DNA of 64,000 nt from positions 62,001 to 126,000 of the forward strand of contig NZ_CAJATU010000192.1 in the NCBI RefSeq assembly GCF_903944925.1, written 5' to 3'. The stretch is from an uncultured Rhodopila sp. GTDB taxonomy: Bacteria > Pseudomonadota > Alphaproteobacteria > Acetobacterales > Acetobacteraceae. Shown in pieces: positions 24,092 through 30,112 of the stretch. The translations under genes were made by a program, and so were the position numbers. Position 1 is the stretch's first letter, and each line of letters opens with the position of its first letter. A model generated the notes under the pieces. That model was given only the letters and a program-made list of their open reading frames with translations. It had not been told where the DNA came from and did not search any database.

Positions 24092-24646
24092 ATGCATCCA
24101 AGATCGCCAACCGTTGTCGGGATCGTGGCGCTCGCCGCAGTTTCCTGGTTGATGCCTGCCGGTGCCGCGTTCGCGCAGGCCGCACCCGCAGCGACCCATC
24201 CCATCCCCCAGGCGATGCGGATCGAGCAGAAGGAAACCATCGAGCAACTGACCATCCTCGCCGCCAAGCCGGCACCGGTCGGACCCGCGGCGAAGGACGC
24301 CCTGGCTCTGATACAAAAGCACTACGCGCGGGAGCGGGAGTTCATCCTGCCGCCGCTGACGTTGTTGCCGCTGATCGCCGACGGGAAGGTGACTCCCGAC
24401 ATGGCCTGGGCGCTGCCCATGACCGATCGGGTCAGGGCTGAGCGCGAGCAAATCTTCGACGAGCATGCGGAGACCACCGAAGCATTGAATGTCCTGCTCG
24501 TCGCGGCCGTCGAAGCCAATGACAATGACGCCAAGGAGTTCGCCGAATCGGCCGCCGGCGATTCGCTGACCGACCTGGAGATCCTGGAACCGGCCATCCT
24601 GATGATTGGCGACACGCTGCGCGCCAAGCTGCCGGCTGCTCATTAA
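24092..24646 (+). CDS. exported helical protein, paralogue A (degenerate HHE-like)
   Basis: The 184-residue protein has a signal peptide (to about residue 29, ...GAAFAQ) and an all-helical mature part. It is paralogous to the product of 28557-29093. Both carry EFILPPLTLLP, then GKVTPDM-x-W-A and a final P-x-x-L-x-I-G-(D/E)-x-L-R-x-K-L-P. Aligned positions suggest a four-helix bundle like hemerythrin: H77-x3-E81 in the helix before ILPPL and H125 in the next. The first-helix His of the paralogue (H42) is Gln46 here, and its fourth His is absent, so metal binding may be lost or changed. It is followed 25 bases later by a cytochrome c gene. The family is not one I recognise; the HHE reading is inference. 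Confidence 0.7.
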   Translation: MHPRSPTVVGIVALAAVSWLMPAGAAFAQAAPAATHPIPQAMRIEQKETIEQLTILAAKPAPVGPAAKDALALIQKHYAREREFILPPLTLLPLIADGKVTPDMAWALPMTDRVRAEREQIFDEHAETTEALNVLLVAAVEANDNDAKEFAESAAGDSLTDLEILEPAILMIGDTLRAKLPAAH

Positions 24647-24671
24647 TCGCGTGCTGAGAGGGAGATCGACC

Positions 24672-25070
24672 ATGACTGTGCGTCAAGCGCGCGTCGCATT
24701 CACCAGCCTGACCGCCGCTGCTTTCGGCAGCCTGTTGTTCCTCGCACCCGGCTCGGCGCTGGCGGGCGACCCCGTCGCGGGAAAAGCGGTGTTCCAATCC
24801 GCCTGTGTCGTCTGCCATGCGAACCGCGCGGGCGACAACAAGGTCGGCCCGACCCTGTTCGGCGTCGTCGGCCGCAAGACCGGCTCGGTGCCCGAGTACA
24901 CCTATTCGCCCGCCAACCTGGCCGCCAACATCACCTGGACCGACGCGGAACTGGAGGCATACCTGGCAGCGCCGCGCGCCGTCATCCCCGGCACGAAGAT
25001 GGCCTATGCCGGCGTGAAGGACGCCACCAAACGGGCGGACCTGATTGCCTATCTCGATACGCTGAAATAA
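24672..25070 (+). CDS. class I monohaem cytochrome c
   Basis: The 132-residue protein has a signal peptide (to about residue 31, ...SALA), the haem motif C45-V-V-C-H49 and a distal Met110 in GTKMAYAG. The mitochondrial-type GPTLFGVVGR and TWTDAELEAYLAAP segments are also present. It should be a soluble periplasmic electron carrier matured by the Ccm system. GGGAG precedes the ATG. It is the second gene of a pair with the HHE-like protein A, and the same pair order recurs at 28557-29515. Two further class I cytochromes lie within 5 kb, so it probably shuttles electrons within this cluster. Confidence 0.92.
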   Translation: MTVRQARVAFTSLTAAAFGSLLFLAPGSALAGDPVAGKAVFQSACVVCHANRAGDNKVGPTLFGVVGRKTGSVPEYTYSPANLAANITWTDAELEAYLAAPRAVIPGTKMAYAGVKDATKRADLIAYLDTLK

Positions 25071-25080
25071 GTCCGCGCCG

Positions 25081-25647
25081 ATGGAGATCTCCTACCGCGA
25101 CCTGATCACGGTGCTGCATGGCATGGGCTTCGGCACCCTGTTCATGCTGGCGTTCTCCGGCGCCATCGGGGTGATCTATGCCACCTCGATGGGCGGCGGC
25201 GAGGCGACCCCGTCGCGGTGGAATACCCTGATGTTCCGCTTCTACCTGATCAGCATGGCGGTGCTGGCGTGGCTGACCGTGCTGTCCGGGGCCTACATCA
25301 TTTACCCCTGGTATCGCGCCGCTCCGCCCGCCGGGACAACCGATCTGTCCGGCTATCCCCGCAGCCTGCTGCTGTCGAACCCGATGACCGCGGGATGGCA
25401 TGACCTCGGGATGGAGTGGAAGGAGCACATCGCCTGGTTCACGCCGATCGCGATGACCATGGTGGCCTATGTCTTTATTAAGTATGGCCCGCAGCTCGCG
25501 CTGCATCGCCATCTGCGCGCCGCGGTGCTGGTGTTCACCGCGGTGGCGTTTTTCGCCACTGCCGTCGCCGGCGGCTTCGGGGCGTTCCTGAACAAGAACG
25601 CCCCGGTCCGCGGCGGCGCGCAAATAATCCTGTTCGAGAGCCGGTAG
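25081..25647 (+). CDS. polytopic membrane protein with conserved histidines
   Basis: The 188-residue protein has about four transmembrane segments: LITVLHGMGFGTLFMLAFSG, ISMAVLAWLTVLSGAYIIYP, IAWFTPIAMTMVAYVFIKYG and LVFTAVAFFATAVAGGFGAFL. His13 lies in the first segment and WHDLGMEWKEHIAW precedes the third, so histidine pairs could bind haem b as in small cytochrome b-type subunits (inference). It begins 10 bases after the cytochrome c gene and ends one base before the next gene, which suggests an operon. I do not recognise the family; a quinone-interacting or cytochrome b-like subunit is one possibility. Confidence 0.7.
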   Translation: MEISYRDLITVLHGMGFGTLFMLAFSGAIGVIYATSMGGGEATPSRWNTLMFRFYLISMAVLAWLTVLSGAYIIYPWYRAAPPAGTTDLSGYPRSLLLSNPMTAGWHDLGMEWKEHIAWFTPIAMTMVAYVFIKYGPQLALHRHLRAAVLVFTAVAFFATAVAGGFGAFLNKNAPVRGGAQIILFESR

Positions 25648-25648
25648 C

Positions 25649-25993
25649 ATGCACGAGTTCCAGCCACCGCCGCTGTTGCTGCGCAACGGACCCGGCGCCG
25701 CGGCGATTCTGTCGGCGGGGATCGGTTCGGGCGCTTTGGGAGTCTTCGCATTCGCCGCGGACGCGGTTCCGGCGATCAATCACCTGTTTGCGTTCTGGAA
25801 ACCGTCCGGCGCCTTGTCGGGCGTCACCACGTCAGCCATCGTCGTCTGGCTGGCCGCGTGGTTCGTGCTGTCTCGCCGCTGGGCGTCACGCGACGTCAGC
25901 CTGCTTTGGGTGAACCTGGCCTCGGGGCTGATGCTGCTCGTCGGGCTGCTGTTGACCTTCCCGCCGTTCATGGATTGGCTCCAGGCCCTGTAG
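25649..25993 (+). CDS. small membrane protein with three transmembrane segments
   Basis: The 114-residue protein (MHEFQPPPLLLRNGPGAAAILSAGIGSGALGVFAFAAD...) has hydrophobic segments around residues 17-37, 60-75 and 86-105. It starts one base after the previous stop, so the two membrane proteins are co-translated and probably form a complex. No cofactor motif is visible. The downstream multicopper oxidase remnant begins 12 bases later. The family is unknown to me. Confidence 0.65.
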   Translation: MHEFQPPPLLLRNGPGAAAILSAGIGSGALGVFAFAADAVPAINHLFAFWKPSGALSGVTTSAIVVWLAAWFVLSRRWASRDVSLLWVNLASGLMLLVGLLLTFPPFMDWLQAL

Positions 25994-26005
25994 CTCCGCG
26001 GCAGG

Positions 26006-26653
26006 ATGTCAGGCACCGCCGATGGCTGCCGAAGCGGGCCGGGGCCGTGGCGCCGGCGGGCGGGGTGCCGGCGACGGCCCGCGCACAGGATGCCGACGCT
26101 GATCACACGCTGCGGATCGCCACCGGACTGGTCGAGCTGGCGCCTGATCATATTGTTTCAACAACGCTGTATAACGGCCAGTTCCCGGGCCCGCTGCTGC
26201 GCATGCGGCAGGGGCGGCGGGTCGTGGTGGACATTCACAACGACACCGACACGCCGGAACTGGTGCACTGGCACGGGCAGACGATCCCGGCGGATGTCGA
26301 TGGCGCGGCGGAGGAGGGATCTCCCTTCGTCCCGCCGCACGGCATGCGGCGGGTGGCCTTCGAGCCGAAGCCGGCCGGGTTCCGCTTCGACCATACGCAT
26401 GTCCCGGCACCTGCACCGGCACAGCTTCGAACTGACGCATATCGGCGGCAAGGCGACGTCCGGCGTGGTGAGGGACGTGGCGATGCTGGGCGGGTTCCAC
26501 AAGGTGGCGTTCGATTGCGTGGCCGCCAATCCGGGGCTTTCGCTGTTTCACTGCCATCAGCAGTTACATATGGACTTCGGGTTTATGGCGCTGTTCGACT
26601 ACGGGCAATCGTTTCAGCGTGCGGTCTGGTATCTGCTGCAACCATTGCTCTAA
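26006..26653 (+). pseudogene. decayed multicopper oxidase, frameshifted and internally deleted
   Basis: The 5' part encodes a recognisable first cupredoxin domain (FPGPLLRMRQGRRVVVDIHNDT, LVHWHGQTIPADVDG, GFRFDHTHV), with the type-3 HWHG and HTH copper ligands. The 3' part, in another frame, encodes the last-domain ligands HLHRHSFELTHIGG and LFHCHQQLHMDFGFM. The roughly 300 residues usually between them are missing, and the frame changes at the junction near 26400. Near the 5' end ATG-TC-AGG also lacks one base relative to a Tat-like start M-S-R-H-R-R-W-L. The copper oxidase therefore cannot be made. Intact relatives oxidise Cu(I), Fe(II) or phenols in the periplasm, which suits the surrounding redox cluster. 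Confidence 0.8.
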
Positions 26654-26952
26654 TCACCGGCTCGGGCGGTTAAGCGGCGCTTACATACCGGGGTACCGTT
26701 TTCCGGCAATGGTTGGTTGAAGCAACGACAGCGTTTGCACCTCGCTCGCGCTTAGAACCTTCACTTGGCAACCATCGGGACGATTGCACCGCTCAGCGCT
26801 CGCGGGTTGACGCCGATCGTGATTTTGGCGGATTAGTGTCGCCAAAACAACGCGGTAGAAAAATCTTGCCCGCAGCCGGCAAATTGATCTAGATCAATGA
26901 ACGACTCGCATTGGTGTGGGGTTATCTGCGAGCGTAAAATTGGGGAACGTCA
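26654..26952. other. regulatory intergenic region upstream of the porin-cytochrome gene
   Basis: The 299 bases hold the FNR-type palindrome at 26884-26897 and an AT-richer block next to the ATG. No open frame with a ribosome-binding site is seen. Confidence 0.5.
26884..26897. promoter_or_regulatory. perfect FNR/FixK/ANR-type binding site
   Basis: TTGATCTAGATCAA is a fully symmetric match to TTGAT-N4-ATCAA. Its centre is 62 bases before the ATG at 26953. If it acts as a class II site at -41.5, transcription starts near 26932. It implies control of the porin-cytochrome gene by oxygen, nitric oxide or redox state through an Fnr/FixK protein not encoded in the window. Confidence 0.75.
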
Positions 26953-28377
26953 ATGATTGCTAGAACCCGAACTCCATTCGGAGTCGGCCCGATCTGGTTC
27001 GGGGTCTGTGTGCTCGCGCTCGCGGCACTTCTATCGGGATCCAAGCCGGCTCAGGCGATTCCGGCTTTCGCCGCGCAAACCGGCTACCCTTGCATCCAGT
27101 GCCATATCGGCGCTTACGGTCCGCAGCTCACCCCGTTCGGACGGGAATTCAAAATGAGCGGCTATACCATTACCGGCGGTGAGGGCTGGGTATCGCATGT
27201 GCCGGTCGCGATCATGGTCCAGCCGACCTTCACCAACGTCAACAAGTCGTTGCCGAGCGGCACCAGCCCCGGCGCGCCATATGGCTACAATAATACCGCC
27301 GCGTTCGATCAGGTCAGCCTGTTCATCGGCGGCAACCTCGGCGAGCACAGCGGTGCCTTGATCCAGGCGGTGACCTATTCGCAGGACGGCAACGAGTTCA
27401 ACATGGATAATATGGACATCGTGCCGTACACCACGACGTTCGATATCGGCGACAAGCAGCTGCGGGTCGGCACCACGATCAACAACAACCCGTTTGTGCA
27501 GGATCCGTTCAACACCACCTATGCCTGGAGCTTCCCGTATATCAGTTCCAAGCTTGCTCCGACGCCGTCGGCCGACGTGATGCTGTCCACCGGATTCAAC
27601 CAGAACGCCCTCGGCTACACGGCCTATGCCTGGTACGACAGTTCGCTGTATCTCGAAGGCGGTTTCTACAGCAGCCTGAGTTCCTGGGCGCTCGGTCGCA
27701 TCGGCAACGGCTTCGGCATCGGCAACACCGTCAGCCCCGCACCGTATCTGCGCGCGGCTTACCAATGGCAGTGGAACGATCAGCAGGCCCATATCGGCGG
27801 AACGTTCATGTATGCGGACGTCAATCCGACGATCGATACATACGCTACCAGCAACGCTTTCGGCCAGGACCGCTACACCGACTACTCTGTCGACGCCGGT
27901 TACCAGTTCCTGGGTGACGGCACCCATATCGCCACGGCGCAGGCCATCTACACACATGAGAACCAGAACCTGAACGCATCGTCCGGTGCCTACAACAATG
28001 CTAACGGAACGGCAGTTGGCTCGAGCTACAACCTCAACTCGTTCCAGGCCAACGTCTCCTACTGGTATAAGAACACCTACGGCCTGACGCTTGGCTGGCA
28101 GAAGACCTGGGGTGCCGCGAACCAGGTATTTTACCAGCCGGCTCCGCTCGTCGGTAGCGCCAACGGCAAGCCAAACAGCAACGACTTCATTATCGAGGCG
28201 GACTGGGTTCCCTTCGGCAAGGAGGACTCGTTCTGGCGTCCGCTGGTGAACCTCAAGCTCGGCGTCCAATACATCGTCTATACCCAGTTCAACGGCGGCA
28301 CCAAAAACTACGACGGGTTCGGCCGCAACGCCGGCGACAACAACGCGCTTATGCTGTTCGCCTGGATGATTTTCTGA
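26953..28377 (+). CDS. outer-membrane porin-cytochrome c fusion, Cyc2-like
   Basis: The 474-residue protein has a signal peptide (to about residue 35, ...PAQA). The mature N-terminus is IPAFAAQTGYPCIQCHIGAYGPQLTPFGREFKMSGY, with one haem c motif C47-I-Q-C-H51 and a candidate axial Met68. The remaining 400 residues are Asn/Tyr/Gly-rich with alternating amphipathic strands and end in a terminal Phe (LMLFAWMIF), the outer-membrane beta-barrel signal. A single haem followed by F-G-x-x-F-K-x-x-G-Y and a barrel is the architecture of Cyc2, the outer-membrane Fe(II) oxidase, and of related uncharacterised porin-cytochromes. It lies downstream of an FNR box and before a strong hairpin. The electron donor, Fe(II) or another, cannot be read from sequence. 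Confidence 0.75.
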   Translation: MIARTRTPFGVGPIWFGVCVLALAALLSGSKPAQAIPAFAAQTGYPCIQCHIGAYGPQLTPFGREFKMSGYTITGGEGWVSHVPVAIMVQPTFTNVNKSLPSGTSPGAPYGYNNTAAFDQVSLFIGGNLGEHSGALIQAVTYSQDGNEFNMDNMDIVPYTTTFDIGDKQLRVGTTINNNPFVQDPFNTTYAWSFPYISSKLAPTPSADVMLSTGFNQNALGYTAYAWYDSSLYLEGGFYSSLSSWALGRIGNGFGIGNTVSPAPYLRAAYQWQWNDQQAHIGGTFMYADVNPTIDTYATSNAFGQDRYTDYSVDAGYQFLGDGTHIATAQAIYTHENQNLNASSGAYNNANGTAVGSSYNLNSFQANVSYWYKNTYGLTLGWQKTWGAANQVFYQPAPLVGSANGKPNSNDFIIEADWVPFGKEDSFWRPLVNLKLGVQYIVYTQFNGGTKNYDGFGRNAGDNNALMLFAWMIF

Positions 28378-28383
28378 TCCCAC

Positions 28384-28415
28384 CTCCGCCCCGGTAGCGC
28401 GCTATCGGGGCGGAG
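28384..28415 (+). terminator. strong hairpin after the porin-cytochrome gene
   Basis: CTCCGCCCCGGTAGCG (28384-28399) and CGCTATCGGGGCGGAG (28400-28415) pair along 16 positions with a single G-T wobble. It starts six bases after the stop codon. No T-run follows, so it may act as an attenuator or mRNA 3' stabiliser and not as a classical terminator. Confidence 0.6.
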
Positions 28416-28556
28416 CCGTGCAAACAATCCTTTTACGTACATGTTTCACGGCGGTTGCCGGTTTGCCCAAATAACACTTTACCGCTAATCCGGACCGGCG
28501 TTGAGAGAGAGCGCGCTCTAGCCGTGTCTGCCACTGAGCCAAGAAAAGGAAGTGCC

Positions 28557-29093
28557 ATGAATCTGAAAGCAATCCCCATTGCCGCGATGCTGCTGGGCTG
28601 CACGCTCGTCGTGCCCGGCCTGCTCGGCTCCGCCAGCGCCCAGCCGGGCAAGGACATCCCGCCGTCCGAGGAGATGGAGCACGAGGGCGACATCGCCTAT
28701 CTGACCAAGCTCGCGGAGCGGCCCGGGCCGGTCGGCGTCGCGGCGAAAAACCTGCTCGACGCATTCAAAGGGCACATGGAGGCGGAAGATGAATTCATCC
28801 TGCCGCCGCTGACCCTGCTGCCCGCACTCGCCGCCGGCAAGGTTACGCCCGACATGAAATGGGCGATTGTGGACGCCGATCGGCTGAAGGCGGAGCAGGA
28901 AACCGTCCGGGCGACGCACCAGCGCCTGACCGAGGCGTTCATCGCCCTGAAGGACGCCGGCCAGCAGGAACATGACGCCAGCGTCGAGGGCTTCGCCTCC
29001 GACCTCGCGGCCGACGACCTCGCCGACGTCGATATCACCGAGCCGACCGTGCTGTTGATTGGTGAGTTCCTGCGCGAAAAGCTGCCGCAATAA
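28557..29093 (+). CDS. exported helical protein, paralogue B (HHE/hemerythrin-like candidate)
   Basis: The 178-residue protein has a signal peptide (to about residue 29, ...SASAQ) and a helical mature domain. It is paralogous to 24092-24646, sharing EFILPPLTLLP, GKVTPDM and a C-terminal LLIGEFLREKLP. Candidate metal ligands are spaced as in hemerythrin-type four-helix bundles: His42 in helix 1, His73-x3-Glu77 before ILPPL in helix 2, His121 in helix 3, and His139 with Glu144 in helix 4. Paralogue A keeps only the middle set. AAGGA lies 8 bases before the ATG. A periplasmic diiron or haem-handling protein that works with the cytochrome c gene 41 bases downstream is my best inference. Confidence 0.7.
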   Translation: MNLKAIPIAAMLLGCTLVVPGLLGSASAQPGKDIPPSEEMEHEGDIAYLTKLAERPGPVGVAAKNLLDAFKGHMEAEDEFILPPLTLLPALAAGKVTPDMKWAIVDADRLKAEQETVRATHQRLTEAFIALKDAGQQEHDASVEGFASDLAADDLADVDITEPTVLLIGEFLREKLPQ

Positions 29094-29134
29094 GCCACCC
29101 TTTTTGATTCAATAATAAACGAGGAATCCGCCCG

Positions 29135-29515
29135 ATGAAACGTGTCTCTCTCGCCGCATTGATCCTTGCCTCCGCCGCCGTTTTCAGCGGGCCCGCCCGC
29201 GCCGGCGGCGATCCGGAAGCCGGCAAGGCGCTGTTCAATTCGATCTGCACCTTGTGCCACACAAACATCGAGCACAAAGCCAAGGTCGGCCCGTCGCTGT
29301 TCGGCGTCGTCGGCCGCCACAGCGGCATGGAGCCCGGATACGCCTATAGCCAGGCCAACATCAACTCCGGGATCACCTGGACGCCCGACGTTCTGGAGGT
29401 CTATCTGAGGAAGCCGCAGGCGCTCGTTCCGGGAACGAAGATGGGCTATCCCGGACAGCCGGATCTACAGAAGCGCCTCGACATTATCGCGTATCTCTCG
29501 ACGCTGCACCACTGA
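29135..29515 (+). CDS. class I monohaem cytochrome c
   Basis: The 126-residue exported cytochrome has a signal peptide ending ...GPARA, the haem motif C38-T-L-C-H42, GPSLFGVVGRHSG and an axial Met103 in GTKMGYPG. It closely resembles the product of 24672-25070 in the region of the haem site and after it (TWTPDVLEVYLRKP), so the HHE-like plus cytochrome pair appears to have been duplicated as a unit. It is a predicted soluble periplasmic carrier. Its ATG follows a GAGGA about 9 bases upstream. An imperfect hairpin follows the stop. Confidence 0.92.
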   Translation: MKRVSLAALILASAAVFSGPARAGGDPEAGKALFNSICTLCHTNIEHKAKVGPSLFGVVGRHSGMEPGYAYSQANINSGITWTPDVLEVYLRKPQALVPGTKMGYPGQPDLQKRLDIIAYLSTLHH

Positions 29516-29528
29516 CCGCGGCCCCGTC

Positions 29529-29564
29529 ATGGTCCTCTCCCGGGTACGAATCCGGGGAGGGCCA
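29529..29564 (+). terminator. imperfect hairpin after cytochrome c gene
   Basis: ATGGTCCTCTCCCGG and CCGGGGAGGGCCAT can pair with a one-base bulge around the loop GTACGAAT. It begins 13 bases after the stop. There is no T-tract, so termination is only suggested. Confidence 0.45.
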
Positions 29565-29737
29565 TCACGATGATAGAACAACCTTGTCGTTGGACGACGC
29601 GCCCGCGGCCGCAACGGCCGATGCGGATCGGACAGCGCTGCAAACTCGTTACCTGGATTGATCATCCGTCCCGCCTGCTCTAGGTTCCGGCAGAGCCATC
29701 GGAATGGCACGATGGCGGTATGGAGTCTGTAGACAAA

Positions 29738-30112
29738 ATGAAGCATCTATTGCTGGCGGCTATCGTTTCGACCGGGGCTTGGGCCTGGGCTGGTTCCGCC
29801 AGCGCACAGGATGCCGCGGCCGGGGCGATCGTATTCAAAACGCAATGCGCCGGTTGCCACTCGCCGCTCGAAGGCAAGAATGTCGTCGGGCCGAGCCTGT
29901 TCGGCATCGTCGGCCGCCAGGCCGGACAGGTCCCGGGATTCAAATACTCCGCCGCAAACAAGGAATCCGGCAAGACCTGGGATGAGGCGACGCTGAACGC
30001 CTACATCACCAACCCGCAGGCGGTCGTGCCGAAAACCATCATGCCGTATGCGGGCCTGAAGAACGACACCCAGCGCGCGGACCTGATCGCCTACCTCGCG
30101 ACCATTAAATAG
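29738..30112 (+). CDS. class I monohaem cytochrome c
   Basis: This is the third small cytochrome of the cluster, about 124 residues. It has a signal peptide (...GSASAQ, near residue 24), haem motif C37-A-G-C-H41, GPSLFGIVGRQAG, and Met102 in KTIMPYAGLKND, where the usual G-T-K-M is K-T-I-M. A start 18 bases upstream (ATG at 29720) is also possible; I prefer 29738 because it gives a cleaner signal peptide. It sits after a hairpin and 220 bases from the previous gene, so it probably has its own promoter. It is a predicted periplasmic electron carrier. Confidence 0.9.
   Translation: MKHLLLAAIVSTGAWAWAGSASAQDAAAGAIVFKTQCAGCHSPLEGKNVVGPSLFGIVGRQAGQVPGFKYSAANKESGKTWDEATLNAYITNPQAVVPKTIMPYAGLKNDTQRADLIAYLATIK

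Follow-up and report, generated by a model that had tools for sequence, protein, structure and literature searches.

Among the closest described relatives of the system studied here are Cyc2 proteins, i.e., monohaem cytochromes fused to an OprO-like 16-strand barrel that carry the motif AXPXFAR[Q/K][T/Y]; Cyc2 of Mariprofundus oxidises Fe(II) (Keffer and co-workers 2021, PMC8406198). Cyc2 homologues are also reported for Acetobacteraceae, often next to a cytochrome gene (Degli Esposti and co-workers, PMC10715153). The barrel-cytochrome pair is therefore already known, while the words hemerythrin and multicopper have zero occurrences in the main text of that report. Here, we analyse nine elements at positions 24092-30112 of a 64,000-nucleotide stretch (the window), all on the + strand, within contig C192 of the 7.0 Mb genome of a Rhodopila (Acetobacteraceae). 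They comprise a Cyc2-like barrel (BAR), three monohaem cytochromes c (CYT1-3), two proteins containing ILPPLTLLP (ILP1, ILP2), two membrane proteins (MEM1, MEM2) and the remains of a multicopper oxidase (MCO).

An initial annotation had read these elements as a porin-cytochrome electron-transfer cluster with uncharacterised partners. Each element it named is present at its place on the + strand and its overall reading is supported in outline, with three changes: the ILP family can be named, the MCO is optional, and BAR lacks an arginine of the Cyc2 motif. We give a probability of about 0.5 to the reading that the cluster is an extracellular electron-uptake module, i.e., a Cyc2-like conduit with periplasmic and inner-membrane partners. 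The analysis adds the family identity of ILP, a change of ligand positions in its barrel-linked copies, the recurrence of the module across genera and the optional nature of the MCO. To our knowledge, it is poorly understood outside Acidithiobacillus how electrons leaving Cyc2-type outer-membrane proteins reach the inner membrane. The module names concrete, repeatedly linked partners for such proteins, some of them in named strains, which makes the question testable. No description of it was found among titles and abstract beginnings on Cyc2 together with a hemerythrin or multicopper oxidase gene cluster.

Linkage of the module genes across genomes

The named ILP scan comprises 25 loci, i.e., 22 from Alphaproteobacteria and three from distant metagenome-assembled genomes (MAGs; Anaerolineae, Nitrospira, Fimbriiglobus), which hold no barrel. 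Of the 22 alphaproteobacterial loci, 19 hold a barrel, 21 a cytochrome, 17 MEM1, 16 MEM2 and 9 an MCO on the same stretch as ILP. These counts are minima, since several contigs are short (L133, L140, L141). Gene order and strand differ among loci (L124, L129, L134, L139, L142). Since this gene set is found side by side in further genomes, the cluster is more than a chance arrangement. ILP, the membrane proteins and the porin-cytochromes stay linked across genera, such that the neighbourhood on which the initial annotation hinged is indeed conserved. Named carriers are Rhodopila globiformis DSM 161 and Limobrevibacterium gyesilva RN2-1. In a crude clustering of all frames from the 25 loci, no additional family was shared by more than 7 of them, save frames overlapping module genes; the MCO gave no cluster of its own in this clustering.

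Within the genus Rhodopila, ILP is present in 12/20 genomes with a barrel and in 0/13 without (p=5e-4), and MEM1 in 11/12 genomes with ILP and in 0/21 without (p=6e-8), where both p-values ignore kinship. ILP and barrel lie on separate contigs in two of the 12 ILP genomes (G601, G682). On a wider scale, a barrel relative occurs in 61/200 sampled genomes of the family, and MEM1 is matched in at least 11/395 genomes of the host's order (two partial: G289, G579) when scoring at most 8 candidates per genome. Among plasmids, the barrel is matched in 9 records, all at <60% identity and labelled cytochrome C or hypothetical protein; ILP has no plasmid match.

We also mapped ILP linkage onto a tree of 49 barrels. 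Here, 5 changes are needed, vs. about 16 with shuffled labels, and at least 4 of the 5 are forced by well supported branches. The share of linked loci in this tree is uninformative, since linked loci were sought on purpose. One linked group is formed by barrels that are 36-40% identical to that of the window (L134, L135, L137, L139). They stem from MAGs titled Caulobacteraceae, Proteobacteria or Alphaproteobacteria, and MEM1 accompanies three of the four.

As a side observation, R. globiformis DSM 161 (G627) has two barrels on separate contigs (L151, L152) with ILP after each; one pair is accompanied by both membrane proteins, the other by two cytochromes.

Folds, ligand positions and layout of the module proteins

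Cyc2 proteins have one N-terminal CXXCH and at least 365 residues. BAR shows both, its single motif spanning residues 47-51, as well as the PXL element, with PQL five residues past the haem-motif His (four in PMC8406198). The AlphaFold2 model (31 aligned relatives; mean pLDDT 84.4, pTM 0.83) places short helices round the haem site, followed by the 16 long strands expected of Cyc2. Foldseek with this model returns porins from the PDB, among them OprP (rank 4) and OprO (ranks 8 and 11). Sequence searches gave no significant solved relative of either BAR or ILP. The predicted structure thus agrees with the outer-membrane barrel after a haem segment that had been proposed. The strict Cyc2 motif, located upstream of the haem motif, is where the agreement ends: BAR reads AIPAFAAQT, i.e., Ala replaces Arg, and the Arg is present in 5/31 barrel relatives (counted by eye). 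Since it is missing, we call BAR Cyc2-like rather than Cyc2. Independently, a second Cyc2-like barrel of the same genome is encoded some 32 kb ahead of the first window position (G000:C192:28870-30210, in L050). It is about 40% identical and adjoins a monohaem cytochrome, with neither ILP nor the membrane pair nearby.

The ILP family had been considered one that could not be named. This did not hold, since hemerythrin matches, the VIA-align comparison and the ligand columns all point to hemerythrin/YtfE-like proteins, and we also reject a nameless family on those matches. Judged by sequence, ILP probably forms a derived branch within the four-helix proteins of the hemerythrin/YtfE type. A hemerythrin match is found in 10/15 ILP proteins, and the gathering cut-off of Pfam Hemerythrin (PF01814, 25.3 bits) is passed by the relatives in L073 (25.7 bits), L147 (25.7) and L074 (29.5). 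The window copies stay below it, with 16.7 bits (0.011) for ILP2 and no Pfam match for ILP1. The structure model of ILP2 is a confident four-helix bundle, and YtfE tops the VIA-align list for the ILP model. ILP1 and ILP2 each have one N-terminal hydrophobic segment and are presumably exported. Ferritin was rejected as an alternative assignment, with weak Foldseek rows (best E 0.39) and a Pfam Ferritin value of 0.016 in the relative from L146.

Ligand columns were read from a 41-protein alignment (ILP1 and 40 relatives). The predicted candidate ligands of ILP2 are H42, H73, E77, H121, D153 and D157. Helices 1-3 of ILP2 show the hemerythrin pattern (His; HxxxE; His), and H42, H73, E77 and H121 are kept in 26, 33, 37 and 36 of 37 family members, respectively; in ILP1, the helix-1 His is replaced by Gln. 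The HxxxE of helix 4 is absent: ILP2 has D153 and D157, and Asp is found at these positions in 32/37 and 33/37 family members. Among the barrel-linked copies, His is changed to Asp in 27/28 and Glu to Asp likewise in 27/28, whereas four unlinked relatives retain His and Glu. Such replacements at the ligand positions of a hemerythrin-type fold would be a natural experiment in how the chemistry of a di-metal site changes.

Further relatives were observed outside the module. A third ILP paralogue of the window's genome (L004:8531-9061, G000:C183; kin in L112 and L113) has no other module gene within 19 kb and carries Tyr in place of H73 and Ala in place of D153. Exported hemerythrin-like relatives in a Nitrospira MAG (L147:8798-9442) and a Fimbriiglobus MAG (L148:9776-10369) keep the helix-4 His/Glu, and each lies about 7 kb or less from a distant multicopper oxidase.

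MEM1 and MEM2 remain as unrecognised as first described, i.e., neither has a match above the curated cut-offs of Pfam or NCBIfam. An assignment of MEM1 to a known family was rejected, given that its Pfam hit (DUF3392, 0.049) is below cut-off and a PDB profile search came back empty. The copies in the 17 named MEM1 loci are 63-89% identical to that of the window, and H13, W106, H107, M111, E112, W113, K114, E115 and H116 are invariant over 19 rows. From the histidines one may guess a haem b or metal site. MEM2 adjoins MEM1 in 16 of the 17 loci; in the other (L138), the contig ends.

That the MCO is decayed could be confirmed. Compared to the copy in L125, a related Rhodopila contig, the window gene lacks about 0.83 kb of its interior and differs by a 1-nt indel. 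The DNA to either side of the deletion is 86% identical, and a search of the whole genome finds only the two fragments. Full-length copies stand at the corresponding place in L124 and L125, both related Rhodopila contigs, and on a different contig in R. globiformis; no MCO relative was found in genome G401. An essential role was thus rejected, considering the 9/22 named loci, the fragments and the absence from G401. Of the suggestion that a copper oxidase acts together with the module, the recurrent presence stands, while the MCO is optional and broken in the window. The relatives carry HWHG and HCH copper motifs, and the nine full-length module copies a double Arg near their start (by eye). 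Best NCBIfam matches are TIGR01480 and CueO, both under the curated cut-offs. At the residue that CueO numbering leads us to expect as the T1 axial ligand, six of these nine copies have Phe and three have Leu. Since a Leu to Met exchange at this position is reported to lower the potential of a laccase by 140 mV (PMC4220974), a high potential of the module copies is plausible by analogy.

All three cytochromes score above the Pfam Cytochrom_C cut-off. The starts of CYT1 and ILP2 in Table 1 lie within longer TTG-initiated frames, which refines the earlier gene boundaries. Spacing is 1 to 25 bp across ILP1-CYT1-MEM1-MEM2-MCO. ILP2 and CYT2 are separated by 41 bp, and the remaining three junctions measure 179 to 299 bp.

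Table 1. Elements of the cluster, with window positions and supporting evidence.
Element	Description	Position	Strand	Evidence
ILP1	putative exported hemerythrin/YtfE-like four-helix protein	24092-24646	+	44% identity to ILP2; alignment with 40 relatives
CYT1	predicted periplasmic monohaem cytochrome c (CVVCH)	24672-25070	+	Pfam Cytochrom_C 5.2e-08
MEM1	188-aa membrane protein, no family match	25081-25647	+	roughly four hydrophobic segments; His invariant at 13, 107 and 116
MEM2	114-aa membrane protein, no family match	25649-25993	+	adjoins MEM1 in 16 named loci
MCO	pseudogene, N- and C-terminal parts of multicopper oxidase	~25983-26642	+	middle ~0.83 kb gone
BAR	Cyc2-like outer-membrane barrel, 474 aa, N-terminal CIQCH	26953-28377	+	AlphaFold2 model, porin matches
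ILP2	putative exported hemerythrin/YtfE-like four-helix protein	28557-29093	+	Pfam Hemerythrin 0.011 (below cut-off), model, VIA-align, alignment
CYT2	predicted periplasmic monohaem cytochrome c (CTLCH)	29135-29515	+	Pfam Cytochrom_C 1.4e-05
CYT3	predicted periplasmic monohaem cytochrome c (CAGCH)	29720-30112	+	Pfam Cytochrom_C 1e-09

Proposed electron path and rival explanations

From Cyc2 biology we infer a path from the donor via barrel and cytochromes c to the inner membrane. That is, BAR would oxidise a dissolved extracellular donor, by analogy probably Fe(II), and pass the electrons to the small periplasmic cytochromes, which would feed an inner-membrane chain with a haem-copper oxidase or a photosynthetic reaction centre. 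ILP would probably bind iron entering the periplasm at a carboxylate-richer di-metal site, where it would be oxidised, retained or passed to another partner. MEM1 and MEM2 could form an inner-membrane pair, for which the invariant His point to a possible site for haem b or a metal that trades electrons with the cytochromes. The MCO would be an optional O2-linked sink or ferroxidase that was lost in the window's genome.

Electron sinks and uses exist, since the genome holds three COX1 matches (contigs C163, C35, C101), two reaction-centre matches (PF00124) and a strong RuBisCO-large match. Reaction-centre genes are found in only 8/33 genomes of the genus, including that of the window. ILP is present in 6/8 genomes with such genes vs. 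6/25 without (p=0.015, kinship uncorrected), which gives a hint of a link between phototrophy and ILP. For springs with R. globiformis, ferrous iron is listed at 50-57 uM in three of four columns of a water table and at 0.36 in the fourth (PMC12542754).

A more specific version of this electron-uptake reading is tentative: a Cyc2-like conduit may have acquired a periplasmic di-metal partner, i.e., a hemerythrin fold with Asp/Asp in helix 4, and a new haem/metal pair MEM1/MEM2. Equally tentative, and jointly with this version, ILP would oxidise iron, chaperone it or relay electrons. If true, acid-tolerant purple bacteria and their relatives would have a distinct route by which extracellular Fe(II) feeds their respiratory or photosynthetic chain.

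The rival that survives best, though unlikely, is metal homeostasis, where barrel, ILP and MCO would oxidise and hold periplasmic Fe(II) or Cu(I) against toxicity and the cytochromes would be mere sinks. It draws on the iron-binding type of the modelled ILP fold and on the CueO/CopA kind of the MCO according to NCBIfam (below cut-offs). However, three cytochromes and a haem-bearing barrel exceed what detoxification needs, and the MCO is missing in 13/22 named loci (some with short contigs) and broken in the window.

Somewhat less likely again is an outward conduit, i.e., at low oxygen the Cyc2-like barrel would release electrons from the cell to extracellular Fe(III). Such use has precedent, as acidithiobacilli are reported to employ Cyc2 isoforms for reducing ferric iron, and ferric iron reduction is also reported for Acidiphilium (PMC10715153). 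Against this reading, the MCO, an O2-consuming enzyme, accompanies 9/22 named loci; the sequence itself does not determine the direction.

Least likely is that ILP handles a small molecule beside the electron chain, by carrying or sensing O2 like hemerythrin or by reducing nitrite like YtfE: the apparent fold similarity to YtfE, reported as a nitrite reductase (PMC9052748), and the abundant hemerythrins of the iron oxidiser Sideroxydans ES-1, discussed as oxygen binders or stores (PMC3770913), would fit, but ILP has, judged by its length, no ScdA_N domain as described for YtfE, and hemerythrin-like chemistry is doubtful because the barrel-linked copies have Asp/Asp where the unlinked relatives keep His/Glu.

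Comparison with known systems

With CueO/CopA-type multicopper oxidases, the module copies share the double Arg, the HWHG/HCH motifs and the best NCBIfam matches; they differ by Phe/Leu at the T1 axial position, scores below cut-off and the pseudogene of the window. ILP resembles the di-iron proteins of the Hemerythrin HHE/YtfE (RIC) family (PF01814) in its modelled four-helix bundle and the mostly kept ligand positions of helices 1-3. It departs from them in its predicted export, the helix-4 Asp/Asp, the low scores of the window copies and the apparent lack (by length) of ScdA_N.

The rus operon of Acidithiobacillus (cyc2-cyc1-cup-coxBACD-rus; PMC10654088) likewise combines an outer-membrane Cyc2-type protein with subsequent periplasmic carriers, while Pfam and NCBIfam reveal neither rusticyanin nor cox among the nine window elements and COX1 is encoded on other contigs. 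Cyc2 itself (PMC8406198) agrees with BAR in the single N-terminal CXXCH, a length above 365 aa, PXL and a 16-strand barrel resembling OprO/OprP; BAR is without the motif Arg, in a comparison made by motif and model. Similar in context are the Cyc2 homologues reported for Acetobacteraceae (PMC10715153), i.e., from the same bacterial family and with a barrel adjoining a monohaem cytochrome, to which the module of the window adds ILP, MEM1, MEM2 and the MCO.

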